Source of the DNA: Paramecium tetraurelia
Taxonomy: Eukaryota > Ciliophora > Oligohymenophorea > Peniculida > Parameciidae
NCBI RefSeq assembly: GCF_000165425.1
Contig: NW_001798979.1
Coordinates: 1-64,000, forward strand
Direction: 5' to 3'
Length of the DNA: 64,000 bases
The position numbers and the translations under genes are program-made. A model generated the notes under the pieces. The model saw only the letters and a list, made by a program, of their open reading frames with translations. It made no database searches and was not told where the DNA came from. Below, one piece after another: positions 602-14,201 of the stretch. Each line of letters opens with the position of its first letter. Within the stretch, counting starts at the first letter, position 1.

Positions 602-1610
602 TCAATTATTTTAGACCTCTTCTTTTAAAATTGATAGGGGAATTAGTTTGAAACAATGTTCATAAGCAAAGTCTGCTAAGGACAAGGGTATGGTATGTTG
701 TTAATTTTGTTAAATCAAAATTAATTACCTTTTGAGATCCAAGTAATGGCATTAAAATATTGTCCTTATTAAATTAAGCATTCCCCTTAAAAATGACATA
801 AACATATTCACCTTTTCATCGCAACGCATTAACATAGTTTGAATCATATTTTAGAACATTGTCTACCTATTATTCCGACTCTTCATATTTGTCGAGCATA
901 TATAAGCACTTAGCTAATATTTATATTAAAATCACCTTTGCAGTATAATGATTTAATGTGATTTGGATCAATTTGTAAAGCTTTATCTGCCCATTTTATA
1001 GCTTCTGCAAATTGGCCAAGTGATTTTAAAGTTAATGCTAAATTTAATGATGATCAATAACATTTCATAGATAATGCAGATAAATTTTCAGCATTCAAAA
1101 CCTAAGATTAATTTAACATCTTAATTGTTGATTCTAACATTTCTTTCTCATTTAAAATGCCTTGTTATTTGCCTAATTAAATTAAAGTCTACCTCCAATT
1201 CCATTCATTTCCAACTATTTGTTATTGTTTTCATTTTATAAACGAAAATTCAAATCTTCTATTCTCAACTTAACAATCAGTTTGATTAAATCATTTTACA
1301 ACTTTTTGACACGGTTAGTTATAGAATACTATGCTTATACTTTAAATTCTTAGAAATATATCATTTCACCAATTGCTACGTTTAATTATTAAACGTTCAT
1401 TCTTACTCTTTCTTTGTTTAGTATAAATTTCAAATTAATCCCTTACTTGAATTTTTCGAATGAGTGAAAGATTGACTCAAATTACTCTGAAATATTATCC
1501 AATAATTTCAGACAATCCTACTCTTAATTACTTAGTTGTTCATTAAATTGAGGCATGTCAATCCATGATTCTAAATGAGCATTTTGAAATTTATTTTAAA
1601 CACATTTCAT
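602..1610 (-). CDS. TPR-repeat protein with an in-frame TGA
   Basis: Start ATG at 1610-1608. The N-terminal half is a helical, Gln/Asn-rich region without recognised motifs. It is followed by TPR units, for example KSLGQFAEAIKWADKALQID. Introns at 1173-1192 (20 nt), 1038-1061 (24 nt) and one of 22 nt near 917-938 join the frame exactly. At 816-818 an in-frame TGA falls where the TPR consensus expects a residue before Lys-Gly. TPR-like sequence continues beyond it (GECLIQQGQYFNAITWISK) to a second TGA at 602-604, but needs a 53-nt intron, which is long for this genome. So the protein is either truncated at 816 (242 aa) or the gene is a young pseudogene. An upstream exon near 1670 is possible. 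Confidence 0.6.
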
Positions 1611-1973
1611 AAAACAATAATATCAAATCTTTACAAAACTCCTTTAAGCATATCATTTTAATGTTATATTCATGCTCACTATTTTTGGCATTTTATCTCT
1701 AAACATTTCCCTTTACTCATTTTATTATATAAAAATTTTATATTAACCTAGAAAACATTTTATAAACTCTATTATATAGATGAATATTATTGTTATATTC
1801 AATATAAAAATTAACAAAACCAATCTCAAAAAATTATGGATTTAACAAATATGTAAATAACTATTTATTAGGCTTGTCTGTGGATAATCAAAGAAAATAC
1901 AGATCTAACAATATTGACACAGTAAAATAACTTAATCCTTATTTAAACATAAACAATTAGATTTATAGAATAC

Positions 1974-4262
1974 TCATATAATTACATTTGCAACTTTTTC
2001 TATAAATCTTTTAGCATAATCATCTGGATTTTGAGCAGAAGTATCTAAGGCAATATTTACATGAATAGCCTTTTTAGTGTGCTTTTCGATGATTTTTTAT
2101 GCATTCCACTCTTATAAGTAATCAATTATGGCTATGTGATAAAAAATTCCTTTTTCAACCGCATTTATGCATGGTATACATTACAGATCACATGAGAAAT
2201 AATTAGGAATCTAAGAAATATGAAATTAGTTTTACATCTGCTTCTTTAATATGTGAGTTATTCTAGCTATATGAATACCAATCCATTTTAATAATCAGGA
2301 GGGAATAATCCATCAACTTGATTCTGCTAAAAAAGTTGGCGTCATTAATTAAACATTTTCTCAATCTTTCTCTATGTTGTTAAGGTATATGCAGTTATTA
2401 TTCTAAATTCTGGAAATCAATGTCTTTTAACGTAATTTTCTTTAATTCAATATCATTAGTTTTTTTGTTTTTCTTTAAGACTTATCTTGAGTGTTCAGAT
2501 CCTTTGATATCATAAGTTCTGACTCTGTAGATGGAAGGTATTTACATAGCATTTCTCATCACGACTACATTGATCGATTCTTCAACCTAAATTATTGAAT
2601 AAATATAATACGTTTTATCTGAATAACTTGTAAATGCCATAGATTGGCGAAATAACTGTTTCATTTTCACTTAAATGAAGGAAGTAAGGTATCAGATTTT
2701 TTCTAATAACAGCTAATTCTTAATCAGACAATGTTTTGATGATTAATTTGTTATCATGAGTGAAAAAGAAGAAAGCACCCCCTTTGCCTCCATCTGGTCC
2801 TTTGAATTACTTAATTTGATCTTAATTGGCAACGAGATCAAATGATTTGAAATGATTAATCATTTTTATATCCCTCTCTCTGATCTTCTGGAATATGGCT
2901 GGAGCATAAACAGTAAATGTTGATTGTAACAATTTTAATTCAACTGTGCTTTCATTCTGAGACCCTTTGTTATCTATTTCGTAGAGGATTTCTTCAATAA
3001 AATCATCAGTATCTAAATTGTAATTAGATTTCAATTTAGCATTATCATTATTCGAAACTGAGTCATTTGAGAATTTATAATCTGTATATCTTCTAAGAAT
3101 ATTAATTTGATCAAATTCATCTTGTACAGATATTTCTGCCTTTACATCTGATTTGCAAACAGCTCTTATGCCAAAAATGATTGTATTGACTTAATCAAAT
3201 TTAAGATTTTAATGGATAGTATCGTAAAAGTTAGCATCGTCATCCACTAGAAGAATAGTTAATAATATTACATAATTCACTTTAGACATTGTCCCTCCTC
3301 CAAACTTTCCTCCACAATCTTTTGACTTGATCTTTAATAGTTGGATCATTGTATCTTAAAATGGATAATACTATTGGAGTGCATAATTTGGCTGAATTGC
3401 CTATAGTTATAAAAATCAGGAGAAATCCTTCATGAAAATATGAGCAATTGAAGCCTGCAATTGTAAAGGATACTGCCTCGCATGTCCATATAATACATGA
3501 CCCTTTGATATAACGATAGTAATATTTTGCAAAAGTATCCTTGATTTCTCTGTATTTCTCATCATCAGGAATGGCTTTATTGAAGTACCATATTGTATAC
3601 AATGAAATGAGAGTGTATAAAAATACCAGTACGATACCAGCCAACGGAAACCCAGGATGATATTTGAAACTGCAGGTGCCAAATATTGAAAGACCATTGT
3701 TATTAGTAAACTTAGCTAAGAGTGGAATTGAAATCATTGCTAACCATGCCAATGAATGCAGTATCGTAGGCAATTTGGGTATTACTTTGAATTGAGTTTT
3801 TAGAGTTAATCGAATGTAAATGCAAAACACTACATTATAAGATACTTCTCCTGTTCCAGCGAATATACTAAACATCGAATTGATCTGACAGAATAAACCT
3901 GAACTCAAAGGATTCTAACCATATGTAGTGTAGTAACAAGCAGTCACAAACCAATGTATACATAATATTGCATCAGACAGAGATATAAAGAAAACTATAT
4001 CCCCAGGCATTTTCCTTGTATTCGGATACTTGATAAAGCTGTAGGTGATGAATATAGTGCACATAAAGGCTAATGGGGCTAAATGATGATAAAATTTTCA
4101 AATACAAACTATAAGAAATATATATTGATCTAAGGGTTGCACTTTAATCTTTTCAGACAGTTCCTAATCAGTCAAATTATCGTAACAATAAAACACATCA
4201 TCATCACTATAAATCCCTAAGGCTGAGCTCAATAATAAAAAGTAGATTATCAATTTTATCAT
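1974..4262 (-). CDS. seven-transmembrane receptor fused to a phosphatidylinositol-phosphate kinase (GPCR-PIPK)
   Basis: About 725 aa. The N-terminus has a hydrophobic leader and a short acidic luminal segment. A seven-helix membrane region follows to about residue 300, with features such as FCQINSMFSIFAGTGEVSYN. A linker leads to a full PIP-kinase domain: glycine-rich loop GGKGGAFFFFTHDNKLIIKT, YDIKGS (the family's DLKGS), MDYSLLI, and IIDYLQEWN near the C-terminus. These match PIP4K/PIP5K enzymes, which phosphorylate phosphoinositides at membranes. Receptor-lipid kinase fusions of this kind are known from oomycetes and Dictyostelium (RpkA). Four introns of 25-34 nt join all exons in frame, for example a 34-nt intron just after the TM region. 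The ligand is unknown. The fusion is read directly from one continuous spliced frame. Confidence 0.85.
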
Positions 4263-4577: not shown

Positions 4578-5932
4578 GAAAACAAATTAGATGAAAGAAT
4601 TATTTCTTTGTATAAAGGATAAGCAGGAATCGAATTAGGAAATAATTGTTGGGAACTATTTGTTTTAGAACATCGGATTTAAGTAGATGGGTATAGTATA
4701 TAAGTTAAGAAATTGGGAATTATCGATGATGCATTTCAGAATTTCTTTTCAGAAACTGGAAATAACAAACACTCCCAAAGATCTTTATTTATTGATTTAG
4801 ATAGGAATACTATTGATGAATTGAAAAGAAGCCAATTTAGAGAATTATTTAGACCTTAATAAATGATTTTAGGAAAGGATAGTGCTATAGACATTTATGC
4901 AGGAGGCTACTATGGAGTTGGAAAAAAATATTATAGATGCCGGTATGGATCGAATTAGATAATTTAAGGAAGATTGCATGGGTTTTTAGGGATTTATAAT
5001 ATTTCATTCTGTTGGAGGAGGTACTAACTCTGGATTTGCATATTTATTATTGGAAGCAATACGCAATACACGAAGAATTTGGTAAGCAATCAATCAATAG
5101 CGTTGCTACTTTTCCATCTCCTTAAATTGAATCATCTATAATTGAACCATACAATACATATTGTGTGAAAGTGCATTAAATGATCATAACGATGTCTTTA
5201 TCTTATTAGATAATGAGGCCATCTATGATATTTGCAATAGGCATTTGGAGACAGAAAGGTGTTCTTATACAAATTTAAATGGAATTATAGCTTAGGAATG
5301 TTCAACTTTAACACTTTCATTAGGATTTGATGGATAGTTGAATTTATAGTTGGATGATTGTCAGACAAATTTAGTTCCTAAAATTCCTTTTATGCTTTAG
5401 AAAAATAATAAATCATTAAATCAAATGTATCATCATATGCATCAATTGTTGCAATTTCAAAAATCGTGACATCTCTTTTTTTCAACCTTAGAACATAATG
5501 GTTAAATGTGATACAAATCATGGAAAATATATGGCAAGTCCATCTGTATTATAGAGGGGAAATAATACCAAAAGAAGTTAATGCTGCACTTGCATAAATA
5601 AGATTTATTAAATAAGTATATGTAATATTAGATTGGTGTACTAAAGGATTTAAATTAGATATTAATTATAACCTCCTGCCAGCATATATGATCTCGAATA
5701 AAACTGCAATAGAAGAAGTTTTTGCAAGAATAGATTATAAGTTTGATCTCATGTATTCCAAAAAGGTGCTCATTTATTGGTTCATATAAGAGGGAATGGA
5801 AGAGGGAGAGTTCATTGAAGCAAGAGAAAATATTTCAGCTCTTGGAAGGATTATTTTTTTTCGAGTGAAGCAGCTGAAAGAGACGGAGAGTACTTTGAAG
5901 GACTGAGTATATATAAAAATTAAATCTTATGA
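4578..5932 (+). pseudogene. alpha-tubulin pseudogene
   Basis: Translation in alternating frames follows alpha-tubulin from end to end: GQAGIELGNNCWELFVLEH near the start, FIDLDR, GGGTNSGFAYLLLEA (the GTP-binding glycine loop, normally GGGTGSG), DNEAIYDIC, FDGQLN, QTNLVP, KCDTNHGKYMA, and the C-terminal EGMEEGEF. At least five frame changes are needed, including one at a run of seven A residues near 4923-4930, others near 5080, 5165 and 5560, and one before the tail. None coincides with a convincing GT...AG intron. No initiator ATG precedes the first conserved block. The gene is clearly dead, but all regions are retained, suggesting relatively recent loss of a divergent tubulin copy. Homology is from recognition of conserved tubulin motifs. 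Confidence 0.85.
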
Positions 5933-6637: not shown

Positions 6638-9600
6638 ATGTAAAATATATTATTCGGTGGAGCACAAAAAGCAGCTAATGGAATAGTTGATGAGTTCTCT
6701 AAAAGACCTTCTAGAGCGCTGAGTTTAAGAGTTCACAATTAAAAAGGAGAAAAAAAAGGATAAAAAAAAGCGAAGTTCACTTTTAAACCCGATTTGCCTT
6801 TAGAGTAGTAATTTGCTCAGTTAGAAGTATATTGAGGTTAATTTGTTAGATATATGCATTACAGCACAATCGAAGAAGACTGTAGATAAAAGGATTCAAA
6901 GGTACATTTAAGATTGAGAACTGGATTAATATAGAAACTAAGTTAAGAAATATGTAGGGATTGAAAGCAATCGGATTTATAGATACATAGTTAGATAAAG
7001 TTCATTTGGATGTATTAAGCAGATGGCTTTCCTGGGTGGATCCATAAAAATTAATTATTGAATTATAACAGAATGAGCTTGATAATGAAGATGTTGCTGA
7101 ATTCCTTTACTTTTTATTTGAAAGAAACATTGATGTCAGAAGTGTAAACATATAATATATGTTAGATATATATAATGGGCAACCCTGGAATTTATAAAGG
7201 AGTCTTACTAAAAGAATTGAACGATTATTTATTTAAAAAGTTCGAGAAGAACATGATACATTATTATAAATTGATTAAGAATAAATAAGCTCTTTCGGTC
7301 GCGATCATCAGGTTGTTGAGGAGGAAAAATGATGAAGCAAAAAGTAAAAGAATACACAGAGCTGAAGTTAAAATAGATTAAACCCAATATTATAAACTTT
7401 AATTGAAAAACTGTTTTACAGATAAGAATTGGAAAGGCTTTTAAGATCTTATACAAACAACATATAAAGAGGATAATCTAGAACAATTAACATATTTAGA
7501 TATTAGTAACAATTTTTTAGGCACTCAGAATGCTTTTAATAACATGTGTACCTCAATGTCTTCTGCCAAAGGTTTACTGGTCCTAAAAATTGCTAATTAA
7601 CCCTTGATTCATAATTCTTAAACTATTGAATTATTGATGGGGAATAGGTACGACAATCTAAAGCTAAGAGAATTCGACATCTCTGATAATAAGGATATGT
7701 TGGAGAAAACTTTCAAAGCCCTTTCAGATAACATTTTCAAATTTTGCAAGATTATTACATTTACAGGGAGTATGCCTTAATAATTGTCAACATTATTTAA
7801 AATGTTTGTTCTGACTGAAGCATTTGCAGACAAAACTAAAGAAAGTAAATAAATCTATAGAGAAAGTAATTTATTCAATTTATTCAAATAGAAAAATATT
7901 TCAGAAAAGATTATTTATAAATTTTAGATTTAAGTAGTATTGAGAATTACAATCGTCATGATTTAGTCGAGAAACTACTCCTAAATACAGTATTCACAGA
8001 ATTTACCAATATAAGAACACTACGTAAAATAAATATGTATCATTTCAGATGTGTAAAATTTTGATGTTGGAAGGTGTTAAGGATATGTCAAAGCCAAAAA
8101 GAAATTTCTAACATACATGGAGAAGAAGAAATAAGATGATACTTTCTTTAAAAATTATAAGCATCCTTTGAAGCATATTGTTTATCCTAAACAAACATAT
8201 AGAATGGAAATATAAACAAAAAAAGAATTCTTTTTAGAATATCTATTTACAGAAAAAGGTAGCATTATAGAAATTGAAACAATCATAATCCAATCAAGCA
8301 CATTTAGGTAAGCAAATAGAGCTGAGGGATTATAGGAGGCATGTGCTTTAGTTATAGAAAAAACAAATGCCAATGCAGATGTTCGATATTCAATTAAAAA
8401 AATATCAATGGATGATAGTGATTACCAAATGAATTACCAGACTTTATAATGTTTTTTGTGTTTGGCTTCAGTACAATTGGAAGAATTTAGTTATTCTAAT
8501 GACTCTATGACATTTGAATGGGATGTTTGGTATCAAGAAATGAAATCTTATTGTACCAAGCTTCAAACTGATTAATTTCATAGTTTGAAAACACTAAAAC
8601 TTCAAAACATTTCAGATATGTATATAGAAATCAATTAATTTATCGAACTGCTTGTTTTTAATCCAAAAATATAACTTAAAGAACTCGTAATGATTGATGT
8701 TTACACCAGCAATATTTAAGAGAATTATGAATCTTTGAAAAGCATAGTTGATTAGAGTGGAAAGGTTACACTTGAAAAGTTAGCACTGGGAGAACTTCAA
8801 GCAGGTTAAGGAGAAGAAATGATATTTGAATAAGTTATTTTTAACAAAAGAGTTCAACTAAAAAGCTTAGTATTAAAAAATGTAAAGCTTCAATAATTTT
8901 TAAATAAAATAGAAAAATTAGTAGAAGAAAATATACATGACAATCCACTGTAATTTTTGACTTATTTAGAGATTGATAAAATTAACATATAGTAAAAGGA
9001 AGATTGGAGAAAAGTGATTCAAATTTTTATAATTAATTAAAGACTGTCACTCTAACTTTTGAAAATAAAGAATACAGTATTAAATTAATAATTCTCTGAA
9101 ATACTAAATTAATTACTTTTTCCGTTTGAGTAAGAATTATTTAACATAATTAAGTCAAAAAAAGAAACAGCAGGAATGGTGATAGATTTAAATGAACAAA
9201 ATATGCTGTCATAAATTTAAAATGAAAGTATAGGGTTACCATTTGTTTTGTATGAATTGAATTATGAAAATTGTACAATCTAAGACGATGTCTTGAGCGG
9301 ATTCTTAGTCATTTGTGAACTGAAGAATCTCTCATTCATCAATTGTCAAGATTTAAAGATTGGAATCAAAAAGAGTATGGAAATAATCAAACGCTTAGAA
9401 TTAGATCAATATTATTCATACAAAATTAAGTCTTTCTCCTGTGAAAGAACTGAAATACAGGATGTTGAAACTTTTCAATCATTGATTAAAGAGATAGCAT
9501 TAAACTCAAATAGATAATTATTAGAAATGCTCAATTTAGACAGCTGCGCTTTGAATGATGAAATGATGCAAGCATTATCCAAATAACTTATGGCCATAAA

Positions 9601-12600
9601 GGAAGAACAGAAATTATATAATAGAGTCTTCCTCCTTAGAGATCTAAATTTAAATAATAATAATAAAATTTCGGTAAGCTCTTGGCAATAACTTTGGGAT
9701 GTTATATTGAACGAAAGCAAATTAGAAAAAAAGGAAGAAGCGCATATGGAACAATCAATAACTGTAGTTAACCCATCATTCTTATTAAGTACTTTTGAAA
9801 AGGAAAAAGAAAATATTATAAATGAGACCTAAAAACTAATTGAAACCTCACAATTATTTTTAAAAGAAAAGATACTATATAATTATAAGAAATTCACTCC
9901 TTAATTCCCAAAACAAATAACAAGTTTAGTTATCAGAATGGATTTCAAAACTCTCAATGATAATGAATTAAAATATGAATATTATCGATTGATTGTTGGC
10001 TTTATAATTCATCCTGAAAGTGAATTAAAAACTTTAGAACTAGAATCCCTAAATATGATTGTCTTCATTAAGGCTTGTATTGAAGCTTTTGAATTCTCTA
10101 AATATTATTTAGAATCAGCATTGAAATAATCTAAACATGATCATAAAAGTTAGATAAAATCTGTAACCATTAAATCATTAACAGCAAATGATGCAGAAAG
10201 TACTGAGAAATTCATTTAAATATTTCTTTGTTCTACCCATATTGAATTAAGTAAACTATCTGTATTTGGATGTACTTAGCCTATTTTACATTTAATTCTA
10301 AAAAACATTGACAGAAAAGAGGTTTACCAATTAGAAGAATTATCTCTTCCAGATCTCGAAGAAACTTTAGATTTAGAAGATACAATAAATTATTGTTAAT
10401 GGTTAGTATTTGGTTAGAGAATGCCTATAAAAAAACTAAGCAGTTGTCCAAATTTAGCAGATATGAATTAAGAATAATTTAATCAATTCAATCTTTCGAA
10501 AGTCAAAGTAGAGTCTATAAATTTAAAATATAAATAAGATACTTCTAGCAATGTTAAATAATACAGTCTTCTTTTAGCTAAATTAATTTTAAATGGGTTG
10601 TAAGAAATAACAATTGATAAGTCTGATACCACTTCAATTATTGTTGAAACCTTCAATAAAGTCAATAATTTAGATAATTTGAAGTTAAAAAAATTAATTT
10701 TTAAAGGAGATTTTAAGCTTAATAAAAACTTATTTGAAAAAATTTCTAAATTATTTGAGAAATTAGAATTTTTCTAGGTTTAGAAATTACTATTAGAGAA
10801 TGAATTTGAAATTTATGACATCTGCTAGCTAATGGATGTGCATAAAACTAAAAATCTTAAATTTGATATTAAATCAGTAACATGCAACAACCCAGGTGAA
10901 TTTTACAAGAAATTCCTTTTCAACCCAAATGTTGGTATAACAGAAATCATTCTAAAAGATCCTTAACTGTTGGAAAATAAATTTGATATCTATGAATTAG
11001 GATAAAAAATAAGATATTTCAATCTAAACATGGGTTTATTATACAATTCTAGTACATAGCTGAATGTCAATGCGCTTTAAATTATTAGCAAAATGCTGAT
11101 CTATAATGAATCAAGCAATTTAGAAGAGTTAGTCCTACATTAGTGCCATTTCAAATTAGCAGGAATAGAAGCACTATGCAAATATTCTAATAGCTTAAGA
11201 GAGAAGATCAAAAGTGACGGGAGAGAAAAAACTGCTTAATTGAAATTAAACAGAATTACACTCTATTATTCATTGTATATTGGTGATGATGGAGTCCAAA
11301 AATATGTTAATGATTTATTGTATTTTGAATACATCAATATAGAGAGATTTGAAGTATAAGTGACGAATTGGAATGATGCAATGACAAATAGCCTATGTTT
11401 GGCAGCATAAAATTGGTTTTAATTCTAAAAGGATAAGTAAAGATAATATTCAACAAAATATCCAATAAAATATATCGACATTGGAAGAAATGAATTTATT
11501 GAGGAACAAGAAACCTGGTCAAACTTTTTAAAGACGTTTGTTTTCACTGATAACACTCCTGATTTGGAAACCTTGAATATTCATTTTATGGCATTGAATG
11601 ATCTAAAAACAAGATATCTAATAGCAGAAGCACTCTAATTCTTCTCCAAGAAACCATCAAACTATAAATTTAATGTTAAGAAGGTTAATTTTTCTTAAAA
11701 CAATTCATTGACTCATCTAGGATGGTAAAATTTATTTAAAAACTTCTTCTTTCATCCAAAGGTTTACTTGGAAGAATTAAATATGATTAGTACGATGTTA
11801 GATAGTCAAATAAAGCTAGATGTCATAGCGTAAGTAATAAAAGAAAGAGCTCTTGATTCTCCTAATAAAAAAGTGCCACTTCACACATTCTTATGTTATA
11901 ATGTTAGTCTAAAAGATTATATTGCTGACTATTTATCTGAATAACCACAAAATTACTAAACTCCTTATGATATTCCTGTTGAAATAGAGTATAATAATAG
12001 TCTAAATTTTGGATATTTTGATGGAGTCCCAGAGGCATTTGGTGATATTTTATAAATGTTTTAAAGAATTCTCAAAACAAGGTAGAATATCGTATATATA
12101 AAAGACTGGAAACTCACTAGATCAAAATATTCACCTTATCATTTAAACATGTGTGATCATTATTTAAATATTCTAAATTAGTATTATACTACCAAAAAGA
12201 ATGATTTAATTGATATCTGCATTAGTTTGTAGTCTTTAGATAATTTTGCAAATTATTTTGGATACATAACTGAGTATCCAGGCTCACCTTACCCATATAA
12301 TTTATTATTTCAATAAAATTCTTTTAATTATTTTAAAGAGAAAAGTTGTAATATCTTTAAAATTAAGATTATCTAAACAGAATTTGCTGAATTAGAATAA
12401 ATTAACTAATTTCAAATTTTGAATATATGGAATCATGTAAAACATAGCAGCACTAGTATTGATTAGATTTAAGTTGAATATGATTTAAACGATGACCTTG
12501 TTGATGAAATGTTTAGGCAAGGCTTCGATGAAAGAGATATAATTTCTCTAATTAGATTGATTCCTCCTTCAAAAATTCGAATTTAGAACTCTCTTAGTAT

Positions 12601-14201
12601 TTAAGCCATAAAAGGAATATACTCTATTCTTTACGACACTTATTATTTTAAATATGCAATGATAAGTTATAGTTTTGATAACTTCCTCAATATTGGTATT
12701 GGTTACTCATTAAGAGAAGTATTTTATAACTATAAGGCTGTTGGACCCATTCGAAAATTCTTTAAAATCGCATTTTATAAGTTCTTTAACTTTTTTGTTA
12801 TACCCACAAAGAGATACATATTTAATGATGAAGTAAAACGATTAAACGATTATTTATCTTAACAAAAATTCTACTTTTTTATTATCGTCATTACAAACAT
12901 ATTATTTTTTGTGATAACTTTAGCTGGACCTTATTTGCTAACATATAAGTTATTAGATAGAGATGCTGTTTAATTAACGAAAAATTATATCTGCGCTAAT
13001 GGAACAAGCAAAGAAGCCTCATATTTATATTACTCATTTGCTTTCATTACACTTATAACTGAGGCAATACTATATTATAAAGTGGCTTAAATAGTTCCAA
13101 ATCACACTTAAAGAATTATTGTTAGTAAAATAACAAATGAAAAGGAGTAAAATGAGGAAAATTAATAGTAACCTGATGGGCAAATCCAAGAAAAACATAA
13201 TAATAAGGTACTCCCTTCAAGTGAAGAAGATGCAAGCATGCTTAAAAAGTAAAAGTAAACTCAAAACCAAAGCCAAAACTTTGACATGGGAAGACACAGC
13301 ATCTTATAAAAAATGGCTACTGCTGTTAATAAAAAGATTACTTAATATGCTGGTAAATTTACAACTGCAGTCACTGCATAAGCAGAAGAATTCACATAAT
13401 CAAAATGGGGGATCCTATTAAGTTATGGAATAACTTTATTATCTTCTTAATTATTCAAATTCGATCTATATAATGATGTTGTCTTCATTTTAAATGCCTA
13501 CAATTGTGAAGAATTTATAGTATTTATTTTAGCTCTTATTACAACTGCATTCTCATAAGGAATTTACATTTTACAATTCTTCTATCTAATAAGTGTCAGA
13601 GTAGTTTAAAACTAAAAAACGGCAAAATTGCTGTCAAGCAAATTTATTAATGATTTCTATGCTATCAGTTTTCTTGGTAGAAATGCAGCACTTTCAACTC
13701 TCCTAGATTCTTCTGCCCCGTTTAATGTTATTATTATTCCAAATACTCGAATAGGAAGATATTTTCTCCCTCATCATGCTGGAAAAGCAATGAGCAATTT
13801 AGTTAAATCCTATTTCTTTTAATTTTTATGCGAGGATTTACCTTAAACTTTATTATAAATGTATTTTGTTGTTAGTTAAGCCATTAGAAGAACAAAAGAG
13901 CTTTAAGTGTAAGTTTATATTTCGATTTGCACGGCTATCCTAACAGCCTTATTATCATTTTATAAGTAAATTATATGATTTATCACTTAGATTTTTATCA
14001 ATTAGACCCACAAATTTATTGTAAGAAAATTTTGATGAATTGTCATCCAAACTATCCAGTGGATATAATTAATTAATTTAAAATAACTTGCAGTAAGAGA
14101 ATGATTAGATTAAAACTTATATTGATTTATATAACACGGTTGATTATGAGATTGTCAATGTAGAGTAATCATAAGAGGAAAGACAATCATTATTGAATTG
14201 A
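6638..14201 (+). CDS. giant leucine-rich-repeat-like protein with multi-pass membrane C-terminus
   Basis: About 2,480 aa from ATG 6638 to TGA 14199-14201. The basic N-terminus (GGAQKAANGIVDEFSKR) is followed by about 1,900 residues of long, irregular leucine-rich repeats. Their units repeatedly read like LxLxxFxISxNKxxLE or LKKLIFKG. The last 450 residues contain about five or six hydrophobic segments, for example near 12870-12950, 13020-13080, 13420-13470, 13500-13590 and 13900-13960, separated by charged Gln-rich linkers. A Gln-rich cytosolic tail ends the protein. Seen introns include 23 nt at about 6832, 22 nt at about 7145, one near 8030 and 25 nt near 13965; one or two further small introns are likely. 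The role is unknown. The architecture suggests a large membrane-anchored recognition or adhesion protein, but that is inference. Confidence 0.7.

Follow-up and report, generated by a model that had tools for sequence, protein, structure and literature searches.

Receptor-kinase fusions in which a seven-transmembrane (7TM) domain precedes a phosphatidylinositol phosphate (PIP) kinase, the G protein-coupled receptor PIP kinases (GPCR-PIPKs), are treated as a family across diverse eukaryotes in PMC12716839 (2025), whose proteome set includes Paramecium tetraurelia. What is known of function comes from relatives of the ciliate proteins: RpkA of Dictyostelium is located on endosomes and phagosomes, and cells that lack it have lower PIP and PIP2 (PMC3206951). 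For ciliates, type IV transmembrane PIPKs were described in Tetrahymena (TtPIPK2a-c) together with 15 such genes in P. tetraurelia, 11 of which fell into a ciliate clade with the subgroup PtPIPK2a,b,c,e outside (PMC3823935, 2013). Ciliate GPCR-PIPKs were later listed as a clade of their own, with a remark on P. tetraurelia duplicates (PMC5784254, 2018), and in published trees they are not firmly placed with the amoebozoan or oomycete members (PMC3823935, PMC5784254). Here, we analyzed a stretch of 64,000 nucleotides of P. tetraurelia (contig NW_001798979.1, positions 1 to 64,000; "the window") and one gene therein, the product of which is, with a probability of about 0.9, a type IV transmembrane PIP kinase or GPCR-PIPK (named "PIPK2" in ciliates). 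A preliminary description of the locus had proposed that finding one in a ciliate would extend the known distribution of such fusions. This does not hold, because fifteen P. tetraurelia and three Tetrahymena genes were reported as early as 2013 (PMC3823935), and ciliate members appear again in PMC5784254. The gene is a good example of a protein kind already known since 2013.

Receptor fold and kinase domain in one predicted protein

The gene runs on the minus strand from window position 4262 to 1974; the preliminary description gave these limits correctly and named no strand. In our splice model with the ciliate code it consists of five exons and four introns with 728 codons and a TGA end (Table 1). 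The ciliate code fits the first 8 kb of the window, where 58 frames of at least 60 amino acids are found with translation table 6 versus 6 with table 1, the longest table 1 frame measuring 208 amino acids. From N- to C-terminus, the 728-residue protein comprises a signal-like N-terminus, a seven-helix domain, an acidic linker and a PIP kinase domain.

The AlphaFold2 (AF2) model of exon 2 contained seven helices plus helix 8, in agreement with the 7TM topology expected earlier. Compared with the PDB, it gave 29 matches at E ≤ 0.001, every one a GPCR, and in those rows the Frizzled/Smoothened and rhodopsin-class folds had 7-15% identity to the window receptor. As modeled, the assignment to GPCRs would apply at the level of the fold only and would not imply G-protein coupling. 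The C-terminal part matched Pfam PIP5K (PF01504) at E 1.5e-47 over residues 473-725, covering profile positions 12-287 of 288, and among PDB sequences it matched PI5P4K2C (2.5e-24), PIP5K1A (9.4e-18) and PIKfyve (1.5e-9). The catalytic motifs are kept: glycine loop, IIK, DIKGS (within YDIKGS), MDYSLL and IID (within IIDYLQEWN). The glycine loop, DLKGS-type motif (here DIKGS) and MDYSLL of the preliminary description were thus all located, and its central statement, that one spliced frame encodes a 7TM region as well as an entire PIP kinase domain, is borne out by the AF2 model, the GPCR fold matches, the PIP5K match and two paralogues.

Type I PIPKs carry a dilysine in the activation loop with K-x-x-E spacing. 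In the window kinase this loop reads AQKIIEKHTKK, with QK instead of KK. Because QK replaces the dilysine while the K-x-x-E spacing stays, a 5-kinase-like activity, from phosphatidylinositol 4-phosphate (PI4P) to phosphatidylinositol 4,5-bisphosphate (PI(4,5)P2), with altered substrate affinity is most likely. The activation loop of TtPIPK2a also has QK, which was taken as suggesting lower substrate affinity (PMC3823935).

Two paralogues of the same genome, C13 (locus L010) and C197 (locus L011), share this domain order, and each of the four introns recurs in them at the corresponding site (lengths in Table 1). Ratios of nonsynonymous to synonymous substitution rates (dN/dS) were calculated between the window gene and both paralogues. 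Against C13, the receptor gave 0.068, the linker 0.30 and three pieces of the kinase 0.051, 0.099 and 0.052. For C197, the ratios were 0.145 for the receptor and 0.64 for the linker, the synonymous sites of the kinase being saturated. By the comparison with C13, the nearer paralogue, receptor and kinase are under strong purifying selection (0.05-0.10). A 7TM-fold domain and a motif-retaining PIP kinase lie in one predicted spliced frame, and both are under purifying selection.

All four introns are of the form GTA...TAG. A 34-nt intron between the domains had been proposed; such an intron 2 would start with GTG nine bases upstream and leave the reading frame unchanged, and a GT is present at this offset in all three copies (GTG in the window, GTG in C13, GTT in C197). 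A length of 25 nt is more likely, since GTA is how each of the remaining introns begins.

Table 1. Features of the 7TM-PIPK gene in window coordinates
Feature	Position	Strand	Evidence
Whole gene, five exons, 728-aa 7TM-PIPK	1974..4262	-	Splice model, six-frame translation, paralogues
Exon 1: signal-like N-terminus followed by a short domain and the beginning of TM1	4106..4262	-	Splice model
Intron 1, 27 nt, takes out an in-frame TGA	4079..4105	-	Same site in C13 (28 nt) and C197 (24 nt)
Exon 2: receptor domain of seven helices, helix 8	3272..4078	-	AF2, PDB fold matches, dN/dS 0.068 vs C13
Intron 2, 25 nt (more likely length), receptor/linker boundary	3247..3271	-	Same site in C13 (24 nt) and C197 (25 nt)
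Exon 3: acidic linker (LK(x)9GI segment) and kinase N-lobe (glycine loop, IIK)	2612..3246	-	
LKFDQVNTIIFGI, corresponding to the LR(x)9GI motif	3167..3205	-	Alignment; motif definition from PMC5784254
Intron 3, 25 nt	2587..2611	-	23 nt in C13, 22 nt in C197
Exon 4: catalytic motifs DIKGS and MDYSLL	2236..2586	-	Splice model
Intron 4, 25 nt	2211..2235	-	22 nt in C13, 23 nt in C197
Exon 5: IID, activation loop (QKIIE), C-terminus, TGA	1974..2210	-	Splice model

Predicted fusion, topology and possible control of the kinase

Several observations weigh against a receptor that controls a fused, active PIP kinase. The AF2 model of exon 2 was built without the first part of TM1 and reached a mean pLDDT (predicted local distance difference test) of 68.6, i.e. 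medium confidence. No Pfam or NCBIfam family was found above cut-off for the receptor, so that the Pfam check suggested in the preliminary description was positive for PIP5K and negative for 7TM. The best Pfam 7TM row, seen for the C197 paralogue alone, was Frizzled (E 0.023); the sub-threshold receptor rows tRNA_int_end_N3, SpoIISA_toxin and Frizzled were taken as chance, Frizzled alone agreeing with the fold list. The third inner loop is devoid of K and R and acids equal bases in the tail. The exon 3 model was poor (pLDDT 53) and a Foldseek search with it against the PDB gave no match at E ≤ 0.001, the top rows being PIP4K2B and relatives, i.e. PIPKs. The linker is weakly conserved in comparison with either paralogue. 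PMC3823935 states that there were no catalytic data for type IV PIPKs as of 2013, PMC6033456 (2018) still poses accessory-domain activity, ligand and mechanism as questions, and no title on ciliate GPCR-PIPK function appeared among the open-licence papers listed by our searches. Finally, a codon-based gene finder written for this analysis and trained on eight open reading frames set the start of the window gene at 3349, within the receptor exon.

The latter choice, together with the frame that opens at this ATG, raised the question of two genes: a lone 7TM receptor, closed by a TGA near 3240, and an independent PIPK with its start at an overlapping-frame ATG near 3349 or 3289. If intron 2 stays unspliced, the receptor frame indeed stops at that TGA, and frame 1 is open from the ATG at 3349 into the kinase. 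We rejected this arrangement, which is very improbable, because the 3349 frame is not conserved in C13: the equivalent frame misses the kinase there, and the C13 kinase is in frame with the receptor. Intron 2 is at the same site in both paralogues and the same gene finder merged the two parts in L013 and L026 as well as in C13, where its model starts at TM2, and in C197, where it starts at the signal-like N-terminus. It dropped the receptor, wholly or mostly, from the window gene and several paralogues (e.g. L014, L022-L024), and we believe that it penalises hydrophobic stretches. A single predicted transcript for receptor and kinase is indirectly supported by introns and paralogues.

For such a fused protein, the kinase would point into the cytosol and the N-terminus to the exterior or into a vesicle lumen. 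This topology is weakly supported, and the support from charges is modest because of the inner loop and tail compositions given above. With the kinase on the cytosolic side, it would be held permanently on the membrane that contains its lipid substrate, where it would probably convert PI4P to PI(4,5)P2 locally. A stimulus may alter the helix bundle, a change that helix 8 and the acidic linker would relay; the kinase would then be repositioned or paired differently on the inner face, and the output of PI(4,5)P2 would change with it. Coupling, substrate and ligand are here inferred from what is known of the family; that sensing is linked directly to lipid synthesis, as the preliminary description had it, is a published hypothesis for the GPCR-PIPK family. 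The linker, being weakly conserved, gives no sign of signal transfer. The receptor may instead have ceased to gate the kinase, serving as a mere membrane anchor, or the kinase may be a low-activity scaffold. The QK in the activation loop, read as suggesting reduced substrate affinity in PMC3823935, and the linker dN/dS of 0.30 versus 0.05-0.10 in the domains are in line with such a loss. However, the receptor is about as constrained as the kinase (0.068 vs C13), beyond what a mere anchor seems to need, and all of the catalytic motifs are retained. We consider the loss of gating unlikely and favor a receptor that would act on its kinase.

The PIPK family, the linker segment and neighboring genes

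A search of the genome (69 Mb, 231 contigs) with the PIP5K profile yielded 65 matches, which were grouped by eye into 31 loci including that of the window. Transmembrane PIPKs (TM-PIPKs), called by eye as a cluster of hydrophobic segments before the kinase and not by counting seven in each, make up 15 of the 31: the window locus, L010-L014, L022-L028, L033 and L034. In one of them, L028 (G000:C3), the gene finder merges a secreted coiled-coil-like N-terminal region with a multi-helix TM-PIPK into 1084 amino acids, a model that could be two genes run together. The remaining PIPK loci include EF-hand-like and FYVE-like forms, as judged by eye from gene models. PfPIPK/NCS carries a calcium sensor. 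Eight soluble PIPK loci (L029-L032, L035-L038) with N-terminal halves that look EF-hand-like by eye resemble this protein, which is named in the legend to Figure 5 of PMC3823935.

A kinase tree was calculated from 23 of the 31 loci, all from this genome; the truncated L009 was dropped, and L015-L019, L035 and L038 were missed by the glycine-loop pattern. The window kinase and ten other TM-PIPKs formed a group of 11 with support 98/99, and the other four (L025-L028) grouped at 83/77. The 15 TM-PIPKs correspond to two changes on this tree, for which the tool gave a warning of long branches. The truncated locus is a partial copy at G000:C109:212192-212943 (L009:293-1044), to be compared with window 774-2717. 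DNA identity, non-coding parts included, is 95-96% over window 1068-2717 and 84.6% over 774-1028, and the copy breaks off abruptly within the kinase. Because receptor, glycine loop and catalytic lysine are missing, L009 looks like a 5'-truncated duplicate of the window locus.

PMC5784254 defines a linker motif of 13 residues, LR, nine residues and GI (LRxGI), as specific to GPCR-PIPKs and missing mostly in ciliate models. In the window gene, the linker contains LKFDQVNTIIFGI, LK(x)9GI, with spacing identical to LR(x)9GI. Twelve of the 15 TM-PIPKs were aligned across this segment and all line up there. In 14 of the 15, the segment ends in GI in six cases and LR never occurs together with GI; L026 and L033 fit worst. 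With a position-specific scoring matrix from these 14 segments, an MMxG[IM] segment in the same register before the kinase was the best site in seven of the eight EF-hand-like soluble PIPKs, which are paralogues and therefore not independent. The matched segment is MMxGIQ-like, with GIR or GMR in two. Among 200 shuffles for each of the seven, 0, 16, 20, 59, 40, 26 and 23 scored as high, so that all 200 were beaten in one. In the eighth protein the best site lay elsewhere, and five other soluble PIPKs were scanned without finding such a site. In a phmmer alignment, MIGI of an EF-hand-like PIPK was paired with QLGI of PIP5K1A. A global hhalign alignment of TM-PIPKs with soluble PIPKs pairs both GIs and the local alignment omits the segment.

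From these alignments, LRxGI might belong to the PIPK itself, as its N-terminal helix, and not to the receptor, a reading to which we give slightly less than an even chance. We keep it as a suggestion because the local alignment omits the segment and six of the seven scores lie within those of the shuffles. It would alter thinking on coupling: the receptor would have been fused ahead of a helix owned by the kinase, and a signal may pass by moving this helix. No dedicated coupling motif would be required in 7TM-PIPKs in that case, and they could have originated when a receptor was simply added to a complete kinase.

Three further genes or frames were noted on the plus strand of the window. Tetratricopeptide repeats are encoded at its edge (2-634; TPR_1, E 2.2e-9). 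A divergent tubulin-like gene extends over several frames at 4608-5906 (Pfam Tubulin, E 1.2e-17; Tubulin_C, E 2.9e-9) and may be a pseudogene or a multi-intron gene. At 7010-13978, an open frame of 2322 codons in the ciliate code has leucine-rich-looking repeats and a C-terminal membrane region by eye; no Pfam family was found in it at E ≤ 0.01.

Comparison with described GPCR-PIPKs

In GPCR-PIPKs, as in few other kinds of protein, a seven-helix receptor may reach its effector with no G protein in between; neither an established ligand nor in vitro kinase activity is reported in the papers cited. The window gene is a practical test case and not a discovery, being an intact-looking, constrained member with close paralogues in a Paramecium-type genome. 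With TtPIPK2a and the 15 PtPIPK2 proteins it shares the signal-like N-terminus, the 7TM region and a C-terminal PIPK with IIK, MDYSL and IID, and with TtPIPK2a also the QK activation loop (PMC3823935). The TM-PIPKs of this genome likewise number 15 and divide into 11 and 4, a likeness to the PtPIPK2 set of PMC3823935 in number and pattern and not in sequence; because number and split agree, the window gene is possibly among those listed there. As in RpkA of Dictyostelium, with which it is likened by description (PMC3206951), a single polypeptide carries a 7TM receptor and, after it, a PIP kinase. The domain order and the spacing of the linker segment are common to the oomycete GPCR-PIPKs (PMC5784254, PMC6033456), 223 of 223 of which carry LRxGI (PMC5784254), whereas the window gene has the LK variant.
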